Made by a program: the position numbers and the translations under genes. A model generated the notes under the pieces. The model did not search any database, was not told the origin of the DNA, and saw nothing but the letters and a program-made list of their open reading frames with translations. A stretch of 64,000 nt of DNA from [Bacillus] enclensis (GTDB lineage: Bacteria; Bacillota; Bacilli; Bacillales; Bacillaceae_B): NCBI RefSeq assembly GCF_001456935.1, contig NZ_KQ758483.1, positions 434,001 through 498,000 on the forward strand, written 5' to 3'. Below are positions 6,397-19,684 of the stretch, one piece after another. How positions within the stretch are numbered: the first letter of the stretch is position 1; each line of letters opens with the position of its first letter.

Positions 6397-7860
6397 ATGA
6401 TGAGATTGCACGCTTTGCTGGAAGTACTGCCGTTTTACAAAGTACAGGGTGAAGGAAATCCGGCTATTTCAAACATCGCAAACCACCATAAGAAAGTAAG
6501 GAATGGGGATTTATTTATCTGTATCAAAGGTCTGGAGGTTGACAGCCATTCCCTCGCCCATGTTGCTGAGAAAAACGGTGCAGCTGCTATTCTTGCAGAA
6601 AGGGAAGTGGACGTTGACATACCCGTAATCATTGTGCCGGACACGAAAAAAGCTATGGCTGTCCTGTCGGATCATTTTTATGAACAGCCCTCACATCGTT
6701 TGTTGCTTGTTGGTGTGACGGGCACAAATGGCAAAACCACTACCACTAATCTGATTGATCAGATATTTACGGGTAATGGAATGAAGACGGGACTTATAGG
6801 GACGATGCATATAAAAGCAGGCGACGAGCTTGAGGTGAGTCATAATACGACGCCGGACAGCTTGACTCTGCAGCAGACGTTTCATCGGTTCTGCAAGAAA
6901 GGCGTCAAGTCTGCCATCATGGAAGTTTCCTCACATGCCCTCGATCAAGGGAGGGTGCATGGATGTGACTATGATATTGCCGTTTTCACCAATTTATCTC
7001 AGGATCATCTGGACTACCACCGATCAATGGATGAGTATCGGAATGCGAAAGGCTTATTGTTTTCACAATTAGGAAATACTTATTATAAAAAAACTCCTAA
7101 ATATGCCATCATAAACAAAGATGATCATGCCGCGGAATATTTCATCAGGTCCACAGCAGCTCATGTATTCACATATGGTTTATCAGCGGAAGCAGACTTC
7201 TGCGCACGGGACCTGCAATTGAAACCTTCTGAATCTTCCTTTACCCTGGTCAGTCCGTTCGGGGAGAAGGACATAGTCCTCCCGCTTGCCGGGAAATTCA
7301 ATGTGTATAATGCACTTGCCGCGATTGCTGCAGCTTCTGCTGCCGGCATATCCGTCGAACAAAGTGTTAGGCTGCTCGAAAACGCCCAAGGTGTAAGAGG
7401 GAGATTTGAATCGATTTCTGAGGGTCAGCCTTTCTCTGTGATCATTGATTATGCCCACACACCTGATGGGTTGAAAAATGTACTGGAAACCATTCAGTCG
7501 ATAGCGGCCGGCGAGATCATCGTCGTTGTGGGGTGCGGAGGCGACAGGGACAAAATCAAACGGCCGATCATGGCAGAAATCGCTTGTGAGTACGGGGATT
7601 TCGCTGTTTTCACATCAGATAATCCAAGGACGGAAAATCCTATCGATATTTTAAAAGATATGGAAGCCGGAGCCGTCGGAAAAGAATATAAGTTGATTAC
7701 TGATCGGAAAAATGCGATAAAAGAAGCCATCCTTCAGGCAAAAGAAGGGGACGTTGTCCTCATTGCCGGCAAGGGCCATGAAACTTACCAGATTATCGGG
7801 AATGATGTATATGATTTCGATGATCGGGAAGTTGCAAGACAAATTATAAGGGAGCTGTAA
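6397..7860 (+). CDS. murE: UDP-MurNAc-tripeptide synthetase MurE
   Basis: Cytoplasmic ATP-dependent ligase that adds the third amino acid to UDP-MurNAc-L-Ala-D-Glu. The 487-residue product has the N-terminal Mur domain, central ATPase domain with [13 protein letters not shown] at about 106-118, and a C-terminal ligase domain. D408-N-P-R matches the DNPR motif of enzymes that add meso-diaminopimelate, implying an A1-gamma cell wall. The ATG at 6397 has GAGGAG five bases upstream; a second ATG at 6400 is equally close. It starts a tight run murE-orphan-mraY-murD. Confidence 0.96.
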   Translation: MMRLHALLEVLPFYKVQGEGNPAISNIANHHKKVRNGDLFICIKGLEVDSHSLAHVAEKNGAAAILAEREVDVDIPVIIVPDTKKAMAVLSDHFYEQPSHRLLLVGVTGTNGKTTTTNLIDQIFTGNGMKTGLIGTMHIKAGDELEVSHNTTPDSLTLQQTFHRFCKKGVKSAIMEVSSHALDQGRVHGCDYDIAVFTNLSQDHLDYHRSMDEYRNAKGLLFSQLGNTYYKKTPKYAIINKDDHAAEYFIRSTAAHVFTYGLSAEADFCARDLQLKPSESSFTLVSPFGEKDIVLPLAGKFNVYNALAAIAAASAAGISVEQSVRLLENAQGVRGRFESISEGQPFSVIIDYAHTPDGLKNVLETIQSIAAGEIIVVVGCGGDRDKIKRPIMAEIACEYGDFAVFTSDNPRTENPIDILKDMEAGAVGKEYKLITDRKNAIKEAILQAKEGDVVLIAGKGHETYQIIGNDVYDFDDREVARQIIREL

Positions 7861-7862
7861 CC

Positions 7863-8279
7863 ATGCTCTTTTATGAAGATGTCAAGCAACTCTTTCCACA
7901 TACACGAGGAGTAGAGCTGACGGGGATGGTATTTAAAGCTGTTTCCCCGCTCCCGCACGTCAAACTGGAGAAGGGGTTATTTATTCCATTGGATTCTCAG
8001 ATGAAGCTTTTTGACAGCATCTCGAATGGTGCAGTCGCTTCTCTATGGAAAAGAAGTGAAACGGTTCCTCTATTTGTTCCGAATCACTTTCCTTTATTTC
8101 TGGTTGATGATGTTCATACAGCTTATCAAGAGCTTATACATTTTTATAATCAAAAAAACAAAGAAGAAAAGTGGGAAATTATGACGATGTTTATTTGTAA
8201 TAGTGAATCTGATTTAAAAACAGCAATGAACGAAGAAAACTTGGAAGATATGGACCAAGGTAAGAAAGGAGGGGAATAG
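7863..8279 (+). CDS. MurF N-terminal-domain-like orphan protein
   Basis: Unassigned 138-residue protein placed where many bacteria carry murF, between murE and mraY. Residues about 15-95 read like a MurF substrate-binding domain: GLFIPL near 39-44, [10 protein letters not shown] near 57-66, then [19 protein letters not shown]. It ends without the ATPase domain: no GTNGKT/GSNGKT P-loop and no C-terminal domain, but a polar, acidic-basic tail. So it cannot be a working ligase. It starts two bases after the murE stop with AAGGGAG in the murE end and abuts mraY, so it is translated in the operon. It may be a remnant of murF or a retained UDP-MurNAc-peptide-binding or scaffold protein. The resemblance is by eye. 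Confidence 0.65.
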
Positions 8280-8280
8280 T

Positions 8281-9255
8281 GTGCTAGAGCAAGTTATATT
8301 TTTCACAATTATTATGGCATTTCTCATCACCGTGCTGCTCTCTCCCGTTTTTATTCCCTTCTTGCGGAGGTTGAAATTTGGTCAGAGCATCAGGGATGAA
8401 GGTCCTCAGTCGCATCAAAAGAAAACGGGCACCCCTACAATGGGGGGGATTGTATTTCTTCTATCGATTGTCATCACGACCTTTGTCATGACAGGGAAAT
8501 ACTCAGAGCCGGGCGCTGAAACCTATCTTTTGCTTCTCGTGACAGTTGGATTTGGCCTCCTTGGTTTTCTGGATGATTTTATCAAAGTAGTCATGAAGCG
8601 TAACCTGGGCTTGACTTCCAAGCAGAAGCTCCTGGGCCAGATTGTAATCTCTGCAATATTTTATTTCATCTTTAAGCAGAATGACTTTCCGACCACTGTA
8701 TCCATTCCATTGACAGATATATCATTTGATCTTGGCTGGTTTTATGTAGTGTTCATTATATTCTGGCTGGTCGGTTTTTCAAATGCTGTGAATATTACAG
8801 ACGGACTGGATGGATTGGTATCAGGTACATCGGCTATTGCTTTTGGTGCTTTGGCAGTTCTTGCCTGGAATCAAGGTCAATATGATATAGCGATATTCGG
8901 GGTAGCAGTGGTAGGAGCCGTCCTTGGTTTCCTAGTGTTCAATGCACATCCGGCCAAGGTATTCATGGGCGATACCGGCTCACTCGCACTCGGAGGGGCA
9001 ATTGCTACGATTGCCATCCTTACGAAACTGGAGATCATCCTGATCTTGATCGGTGGAGTCTTTGTAATAGAAACACTGTCAGTCATTCTACAGGTTGCCT
9101 CTTTTAAAACAACGGGAAAACGAATCTTCAAAATGAGTCCCCTGCACCATCATTACGAGCTCGTCGGCTGGTCTGAATGGAGAGTGGTCGTGACATTTTG
9201 GACGGTTGGTTTGCTTTTTGCTGTATTAGGAATCTATATTGAGGTGTGGTTATAA
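8281..9255 (+). CDS. mraY: Phospho-N-acetylmuramoyl-pentapeptide transferase MraY
   Basis: Integral membrane enzyme that transfers phospho-MurNAc-pentapeptide to undecaprenyl phosphate, forming lipid I. The 324-residue length is identical to B. subtilis. About ten membrane spans are evident. Family motifs include the early [43 protein letters not shown] and C-terminal SPLHHHYEL. It starts with GTG at 8281, one base after the preceding stop, with AAAGGAGGGG upstream. Its stop touches the murD start. Confidence 0.97.
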
Positions 9256-18409: not shown

Positions 18410-19684
18410 GTGGAACTTCTAGAACAAATCCTTAGTAATCAAAATATGAATGAAGCCTACTTGCGTGTTTACAAAAATAAAGGCGCTAGTGGGATAGATG
18501 GGGTAACAGTCGATGAACTGAAGCAATATCTGAAAGAGAACAAGGACGAATTACGGAGGCGCATCAGAACAAGAAAATATCATCCACAAGCTGCCTTAAG
18601 AGTGGAGATCCCAAAAGAAAACGGGAAGATGCGCAAATTGGGAATACCAACAGTAGTGGATAGAGTTGTTCAACAAGCAATTCATCAAGTTCTCAGTCCG
18701 ATATTTGAAGAGCAGTTCAGCGAATTTAGTTTCGGATTCAGACCAAAAAGAAGTTGTGAGATGGCAATTATTAAAAGCTTGGAATTTCTGAATGAAGGAC
18801 ATGACTGGGTTATTGATATCGATCTTGAAAGATTCTTCGACACAGTCCACCATGATAAACTGATGCGCATCATATCTCAGACAGTTGATGATGGAGATGT
18901 CATTTCATTAATTAGAAAGTACTTAGTTAGTGGAGTCATGGTAAATGGAAAGTATGAAGAGACACCTGTCGGTACTCCGCAAGGAGGAAACCTCAGTCCA
19001 CTACTGAGTAATATCATGTTGAACGAACTAGATACAGAACTTGAAAATAGAGGATTAAGATTCGTAAGGTACGCTGATGACTCACTTATTTTTGTGAAAA
19101 GCGAAAAAGCAGCGGACCGAGTAATGAAATCAATTGTGAGATTCATTGAGAAGAAATTAGGACTTATAGTCAACGCAGAGAAAAGCAGAATTGCCCGCCC
19201 CAAAGAACTGAAGTTTCTAGGATACGGGTACTATTACGACTATAAGAACAAGAAATATCAAGTGAAACCTCATCTAAGTTCAATACGGAGATTTCAAAGA
19301 AAACTTCGCCAGCTCACAAAACGAAATTGGAGTGTTCCACTAGATTTTCGAATTTTGAAATTGAAACAAGTCATTTTTGGATGGGTAAACTACTTCAGGA
19401 TTGCCAATATGAAAAAAGTGACCAAACAAATAGACCAGAAGCTCCGATCTAGAATAAGGGTCATCATCTGGAAACAATGGAAAGTTCCGAGTAAACAAAT
19501 CAAATCGCTTATTCAACTAGGGATTCCGAAGGAAGAAGCGAAAGGACTAACCTACTGCAGAAAAGGTTATCGGTTTATAGGACTTTCTAAAGTGGTCCAT
19601 AGAGCAATTTCAAATAAAAGACTAAAACAGAGGGGACTCCCCTCTGTTTTAACCCATTATCTAAAAGTACACACTGTAATATAA
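18410..19684 (+). CDS. Group IIC intron reverse transcriptase/maturase (LtrA-like)
   Basis: Intron-encoded protein of 424 residues that helps its intron splice and copies it into new sites. The order is RT domain 0 (GASGIDGVTVDEL near 25-37), RT fingers and palm with FGFRPKRSC (about 108-117), PQGGNLSPLLSNI (about 190-202) and catalytic YADD at 221-224. The thumb/X maturase domain includes GWVNYFRIA near 327-335. It ends soon after with no HNH endonuclease domain, as in class C proteins. GTG at 18410 has GGGAAGGAG upstream. The frame is intact and the catalytic Asp pair is present, so it may be active. Confidence 0.93.
   Translation: MELLEQILSNQNMNEAYLRVYKNKGASGIDGVTVDELKQYLKENKDELRRRIRTRKYHPQAALRVEIPKENGKMRKLGIPTVVDRVVQQAIHQVLSPIFEEQFSEFSFGFRPKRSCEMAIIKSLEFLNEGHDWVIDIDLERFFDTVHHDKLMRIISQTVDDGDVISLIRKYLVSGVMVNGKYEETPVGTPQGGNLSPLLSNIMLNELDTELENRGLRFVRYADDSLIFVKSEKAADRVMKSIVRFIEKKLGLIVNAEKSRIARPKELKFLGYGYYYDYKNKKYQVKPHLSSIRRFQRKLRQLTKRNWSVPLDFRILKLKQVIFGWVNYFRIANMKKVTKQIDQKLRSRIRVIIWKQWKVPSKQIKSLIQLGIPKEEAKGLTYCRKGYRFIGLSKVVHRAISNKRLKQRGLPSVLTHYLKVHTVI

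Follow-up and report, generated by a model that had tools for sequence, protein, structure and literature searches.

The window analyzed here is a stretch of 64,000 nucleotides from [Bacillus] enclensis (assembly GCF_001456935.1, contig NZ_KQ758483.1, positions 434,001 to 498,000 of the forward strand), in whose dcw cluster a short open reading frame (ORF), hereafter ORF138, occupies the place between murE and mraY where murF is classically found (Table 1). The observation was confirmed as real: the frame starts 2 nt past the stop codon of murE and ends 1 nt ahead of the GTG start of mraY, and it lies far beyond a chance ORF, as an open short frame recurs in the murE-mraY slot of relatives. 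Profile and structure comparisons support the identification of its product as domain 1 of MurF (UDP-N-acetylmuramoyl-tripeptide--D-alanyl-D-alanine ligase). The ORF138 family aligned with full-length dcw MurF, profile against profile (hhalign), and an AlphaFold model aligned with PDB structures (VIA-align over the Foldseek top 1000) had the MurF domain-1 fold; LpxD N-terminal domains and MurE were also found among those 1000 matches. Together with the domain-1 tree described below, these comparisons bear out the initial annotation, which had read ORF138 as a stand-alone MurF N-terminal-like domain that stops before any ATPase motif. The protein ends at 138 amino acids (aa), without domains 2 and 3 and without the ATPase motif TGSNGKTTTK, which is present in all nine full-length dcw MurFs (residues 113 to 122 of the first row). 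Compared with MurF, ORF138 thus lacks the ATPase and C-terminal domains, has lost the motifs DSR and FDGH, has a start and stop of its own, and carries an extra tail. Model confidence fell along this tail from a block pLDDT of 70 to 39, and a derivation of the tail from another part of MurF was not supported by a profile comparison, which gave it a probability of 0.5%.

Searches with single sequences or with the family gave little. ORF138 matched no family in NCBIfam or in Pfam at E ≤ 10, six of 60 relatives matched the MurF ligase model TIGR01143 weakly at E ≤ 0.01 (best E = 3.7 × 10−5), and a Pfam scan of the 60 relatives returned scattered weak matches only, Mur_ligase (presumably PF01225, the catalytic domain) not being among 25 of the 26 families matched. 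With the 60-row alignment as query, a profile search of PDB sequences found no match at E ≤ 1, and the plasmid collection gave no match. Nor did any title or opening of an abstract listed in searches of the open-licence PMC literature describe a stand-alone MurF domain.

The short form is widespread. Across 50 homologous loci, the slot between murE and mraY held the short form in 41 and a full-length murF in nine, and the domain was uninterrupted by a stop codon in 41/41 stand-alone loci. The genus of the window is represented by 36 genomes, 35 of which carry the short form in a frame that is open and free of stops; the remaining one (G008) could not be judged because its contig starts inside mraY. 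Across the order, a short frame occurred in at least 59 of 299 genomes and at least 13 of 47 families among the matches listed (to E of about 2 × 10−14), a count that rests on the length of the open frame, includes one genome with a frameshifted tail (G256), and had its flanking genes checked for fetched loci only; many others of the 299 matched through a frame of about 450 to 490 aa. Thirty further genomes were picked by hand, mainly for a weak match or none, so that proportions among them are no census. Before mraY they held a full murF (8 genomes), a dead 302-aa murF (1), a tail-only remnant (2), a copy split over two frames (1), or nothing recognizable (17), and one could not be judged. 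Decay by frameshift, which the initial annotation had named as the mark of a fading gene, is not seen within the genus, where 35/35 assessable frames are open, and is seen in some distant lineages among the picked genomes. In one family, two loci have just before mraY only an ORF of 47 or 54 aa (L152, positions 1355 to 1498; L153, positions 1321 to 1485; on the mraY strand), which resembles the tail (NLFLIKN..ETYDIAVV type), domain 1 being gone.

A set of named loci was fetched with the single pattern PNHFP[LV]Fx[VT], which matched 122 stretches, of which 62 were confirmed, from Rossellomorea, Neobacillus, Cytobacillus, Fredinandcohnia, Litchfieldia, Heyndrickxia, Robertmurraya, Anoxybacillus, B. 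methanolicus, and others. These overlap the numbered genomes (many are the same), so that counts over the 62 are not independent, and the pattern favors the short form and is mostly absent from full MurFs, which biases loop conservation and loop ω (the dN/dS ratio). The 60-row alignment comprises 59 of the 62 plus the window protein; among named relatives, a protein of Rossellomorea aquimaris SAMM comes closest to the latter (80% identical). All 62 loci have a short ORF (108 to 163 aa) between murE and mraY, with a gap to murE of −14 to +8 nt in 59/62 and a gap to mraY of −16 to +3 nt in 61/62. A Shine-Dalgarno-like site lies within 20 nt of both starts, that of the short ORF and that of mraY, in 62/62, compared with 20% of 20-mers drawn at random from these loci. 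In the window, the site of ORF138 lies in the 3′ end of murE and that of mraY (AAAGGAGGGG) in the last codons of ORF138, which explains the C-terminus KKGGE and the conserved KGGE. Spacing and ribosome-binding sites together suggest coupled translation of the three genes, in line with the tight coupling to murE and mraY that the initial annotation had noted.

What domain 1 retains of MurF is its core and not its ligand motifs. Ten dcw MurF rows (L136 left out), six MurF rows of the type linked to ddl, and 35 stand-alone rows were compared. D-[ST]-R and G..[DN]GH are conserved in both sets of MurFs, the arginine being present in 10/10 dcw and 5/6 ddl-type rows (lysine in the sixth); isolated rows deviate, as L051 does with DAH. 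Both motifs also occur in the solved MurF of Streptococcus pneumoniae. Among the stand-alone rows D-[ST]-R is not conserved, and the stretch with GH has been deleted, shortened, or replaced. The short form and full MurFs share columns of the fold core (G56, A57, W62, P69, P73, P77, Y95, and others). We take the residues of DSR and GxxFDGH to be uridine contacts, and their loss speaks against a substrate-binding role for ORF138. Excerpts of two reports place the uridine site of Staphylococcus aureus MurE in domain 1, residues 1 to 98 (PMC3829189), and a uridine-ribose pocket in the N-terminal domain of MurF (PMC11569785).

A full MurF, which the initial annotation had supposed to lie at a distance, was found in the window genome as a 462-aa frame on another contig (G000 contig 10), above the TIGR01143 cutoff. 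The ORF upstream of it is, as we recognize it by eye, ddl-like. When 18 genomes were searched with this MurF at E ≤ 1 × 10−40, a limit at which distant MurFs are missed, the dcw gene was the sole match in 11/11 genomes with a full dcw murF, and a single full MurF, 54 to 56% identical to that of the window genome, lay elsewhere in 5/5 short-form genomes. The MurF model was matched in 299/299 genomes and above its cutoff in 278; the 21 below it include none of the 59 short-form genomes (by comparison of E values, among the matches listed). In a tree of domain 1, which has few columns and many unresolved forks and does not include L167, the 35 short rows form one group (support 100/99) that spans several GTDB families and so fits one old truncation, while the six ddl-type rows form a separate group (100/98). 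Nine of the ten dcw MurF rows group with the short rows (89/90, not starred), and the remaining one is placed with the ddl side. These computations support the view that ORF138 is the remainder of a full-length murF that formerly stood between murE and mraY, and that the second, ddl-linked MurF is the working enzyme of the window genome. The simplest account is that the dcw MurF was displaced by the ddl-linked one and that domains 2 and 3 were lost once, in the ancestor of the short form.

Other dead versions of the dcw MurF occur as well. Two of 313 aa (L122 and L123) and one of 302 aa (L167) have destroyed P-loops, L122 having VTGDEGVDMTQN and L167 VTGTDCPTEAAS at that position. Like ORF138 they are encoded in the dcw cluster, have lost the P-loop, and have a candidate MurF elsewhere in the genome; unlike ORF138, they keep a degenerate middle domain. 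The 313-aa pair also differs in its origin, joining a full dcw MurF of its own genus in the tree (98/75), and it probably died separately from the short form. The two genomes with the 313-aa copies (G241 and G284) gave no match to the MurF of the window genome at E ≤ 1 × 10−40; their best matches to the MurF model are frames of about 530 aa off the dcw slot, aligned from model position 72 and below the cutoff, and the genome with the 302-aa copy (G060) likewise has a candidate of about 530 aa below the cutoff and away from the dcw slot. G070, from the genus to which G241 and G284 belong, has a full dcw MurF above the cutoff.

ORF138 is conserved, the condition under which the initial annotation would see in it an undescribed accessory of lipid I synthesis, and it is under purifying selection. 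Over 16 species pairs in which both members have the short form, ω of the whole ORF138 was 0.251, twice the log-likelihood difference (2ΔlnL) from a model with ω = 1 being 223.4. With divergence fitted per region, codons 1 to 100 gave ω = 0.189 (2ΔlnL = 243.5) and the tail, codons 101 to 138, ω = 0.644 (2ΔlnL = 4.6); the estimate for the tail depends on the fit, and with divergence shared across regions it was 0.34, against 0.22 for the domain outside the two old ligand loops. In all nine 15-codon windows over codons 1 to 135 ω was below 1 (0.13 to 0.48, with the minimum at codons 46 to 60). The tail is shortened in loci of the R. marisflavi type (L035 to L037 and L080) and frameshifted in L120, and in both cases the domain is intact. 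Of the two parts, the domain is the one most clearly under selection. Taken jointly, descent from a dcw murF and maintenance by selection are, on these sequence comparisons, very highly probable. As a homologue of an enzyme that has lost the catalytic parts, with purifying selection since that loss, ORF138 would qualify as a pseudoenzyme domain.

A folded domain without chemistry, kept by selection and placed with murE and mraY, is most simply read as a binding module. What selection keeps would then be a binding surface and not a chemistry, and domain 1, whose translation is probably coordinated with that of MurE and MraY, might act as a noncatalytic docking module that holds a place in the cytoplasmic assembly of Mur enzymes, MraY, MurG, and MreB, contacting MurE, MraY, MurG, or MreB, or pairing with the now unlinked MurF. 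Two reports provide context: the Mur enzymes of the cytoplasm are suspected of forming a working assembly at the membrane side, MurF is reported to contact MraY as well as MreB in certain species, and MurG is reported as a scaffold for Mur ligases (PMC4929429, PMC6420597). In Bordetella pertussis, as outlined in one of them, a MurE-MurF fusion and the scaffold MurG show MurE, MurF, and a membrane-side partner physically coupled (PMC6420597); MurF is there part of a bifunctional fusion enzyme, whereas ORF138 is domain 1 alone and is known here from its sequence. A precedent for reuse of a Mur ligase relative as a subunit is plant PAP11, a relative of MurE in the plastid RNA polymerase (PMC9456514, in part), which differs from ORF138 in being derived from MurE, larger (539 residues in chain 8r6s_Q), located in plant plastids, and without gene-level relation to it. 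We regard docking as the mechanism with slightly less than even confidence, and the whole explanation, of a selected murF remnant serving as a docking module, as evenly balanced between right and wrong.

Several results weigh against this explanation, and some of them favor the alternative that ORF138 is a truncated gene on its way out, with no present function for its protein. As the empty slots, the two tail-only remnants, and the split copy of other lineages demonstrate, the short-form gene can be lost, and the frameshifted tail of L120 points the same way. Constraint on ORF138 is clearly weaker than on its neighbors, its ω being about three times that of murE (0.079; mraY, 0.023; same 16 pairs). 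Among 22 single pairs, ω = 1 was not rejected at the 5% level in five (near ω = 1 in L062/L063, L063/L064, and L082/L083; just short of the line in L066/L068 and L086/L087), and one fit failed (L112/L113). In the dead 313-aa pair (ω = 0.37), domain 1 (0.375) is constrained no differently from the rest (0.376), so that selection does not single out domain 1 in general. The proteins of about 530 aa, which we infer to be the working MurFs of G241, G284, and G060, score below the cutoff. A gene merely fading would nonetheless hardly show the ω of codons 1 to 100 in comparisons of short-form species with one another, nor a domain free of stops in 41/41 and 62/62 loci (overlapping sets) and in 35 of 36 genomes of the genus, nor a single stand-alone group over several GTDB families, as fits one old truncation; we consider this alternative unlikely. 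Further from the evidence is a role as translational spacer, in which only coupled reading between murE and mraY would matter (for stoichiometry or the mraY Shine-Dalgarno site) and not the protein itself. The gaps of mostly a few nucleotides to both neighbors and the mraY site inside the ORF agree with it, yet a spacer would not hold amino acids, as the nine windows do, and mraY follows murE with nothing recognizable between them in 17 of the 30 picked genomes; it is very improbable.

The possibility that the domain carries substrate, binding UDP-MurNAc-tripeptide or pentapeptide and handing it over from MurE to MurF or MraY, gains from the location of the uridine site of Mur ligases in domain 1 (PMC3829189, PMC11569785, both in excerpt) and from LpxD N-terminal domains and MurE among the fold matches. 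The loops at the old ligand motifs, expected to be relaxed, are not: their ω is 0.24 against 0.22 in the rest of the domain (shared divergence), and with a constraint equal to that of their surroundings they may still make some contact, which speaks for a carrier and against the docking explanation. The invariance of PNHFP in the 60-row alignment is likewise no aid to the docking explanation, as it is biased by the fetch pattern, and N and H vary in genomes that were found without that pattern. The enzymes compared nevertheless conserve DSR and GxxFDGH, which are lost or deleted in ORF138, so that neither the binding of UDP-MurNAc-tripeptide nor the passing of substrate from MurE to MurF, both raised by the initial annotation, is supported, and we think a carrier improbable. 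Pseudoenzyme domains often regulate their relatives, and as a special case of docking the domain might tune the activity of one enzyme, either the unlinked MurF or the dcw MurE, by pairing with it. That in the genus a second MurE accompanies the dcw MurE, which no longer has DSR, would suit murE and ORF138 as a joint unit. Outside the genus, however, most dcw MurEs beside ORF138 retain DGH along with DSR, DNR, or something close to these, which leaves no general link; we think such an allosteric partner improbable.

In 34 of 35 loci from the genus of the window, the usual DSR of MurE is replaced by NHH (codons 29 to 31) and the usual DGH by DSH (codons 49 to 51) in the dcw MurE, the 35th (L044) having a broken frame; in the other genera read (L085, L097, and L104 left out) DGH prevails together with DSR, DNR, or something close to these. 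As this MurE keeps TGTNGKTTT and DNPR and is strongly constrained, we do not call it dead. A second MurE is encoded in 35 of the 36 genomes of the genus (72 to 100% identical to that of the window genome; the exception is the incomplete G008), and the copy of the window genome has DSR and DGH, with DDPR for DNPR. It has no close counterpart in 25 genomes from other families, where identity reached 46% at best. The same motif has thus been lost in both dcw-encoded proteins, MurE and ORF138, with copies of both enzymes elsewhere in the genome. In the genus, the two might form a noncanonical pair that serves another task, housekeeping being left to the second MurE and the ddl-linked MurF, an idea that we hold to be fairly improbable. 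If it were true, the task might be to regulate or position lipid I synthesis at MraY or to build a special wall, as in sporulation. In L044 (in G010) the dcw murE, at about positions 1533 to 2995, is split over two frames that overlap near codons 39 to 45; either an error of sequencing or genuine decay may account for this split.

Table 1. Positions of ORF138, its parts and neighbors in the window, and of related genes elsewhere.
Feature	Location	Strand	Remarks
ORF138, stand-alone MurF domain-1 protein (supported)	7863..8279	+	ATG start, 138 aa, stop codon included
ORF138 codons 1-100, MurF domain-1 fold	7863..8162	+	ω 0.19, 16 pairs
ORF138 codons 101-138, tail	8163..8276	+	weaker constraint, low-confidence structure (ω, pLDDT)
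Shine-Dalgarno-like AAGGGAG for ORF138, within murE 3′ end	7848..7854	+	sequence
mraY Shine-Dalgarno AAAGGAGGGG, within ORF138	8265..8274	+	sequence
murE, upstream neighbor	6397..7860	+	
mraY, downstream neighbor	8281..9255	+	
Second MurE of window genome	G000 contig 2, 281428-282900		DSR and DGH present, DDPR for DNPR
Dead dcw MurF, L122	1980-2921		313 aa, P-loop destroyed
Dead dcw MurF, L123	1977-2918		313 aa, P-loop destroyed
Dead dcw MurF, L167	427-1335		302 aa, P-loop destroyed

Because the dcw slot can hold any of three dead versions (the short form, the 313-aa pair, or the 302-aa copy), the working MurF of a genome is not readable from gene position in the cluster. Across an entire branch of Bacillaceae and their relatives, MurF has undergone what amounts to a natural domain deletion, in which the chemistry would be done elsewhere while one domain is still selected. 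This makes MurF domain 1, in environmental bacteria, a candidate docking surface that is small, specific, and amenable to testing. Further along the window, between ftsZ and a spoIIGA-like ORF, lies an ORF of 424 aa with a YADD motif (18410 to 19684, + strand), which we take to be a group II intron reverse transcriptase-like gene.
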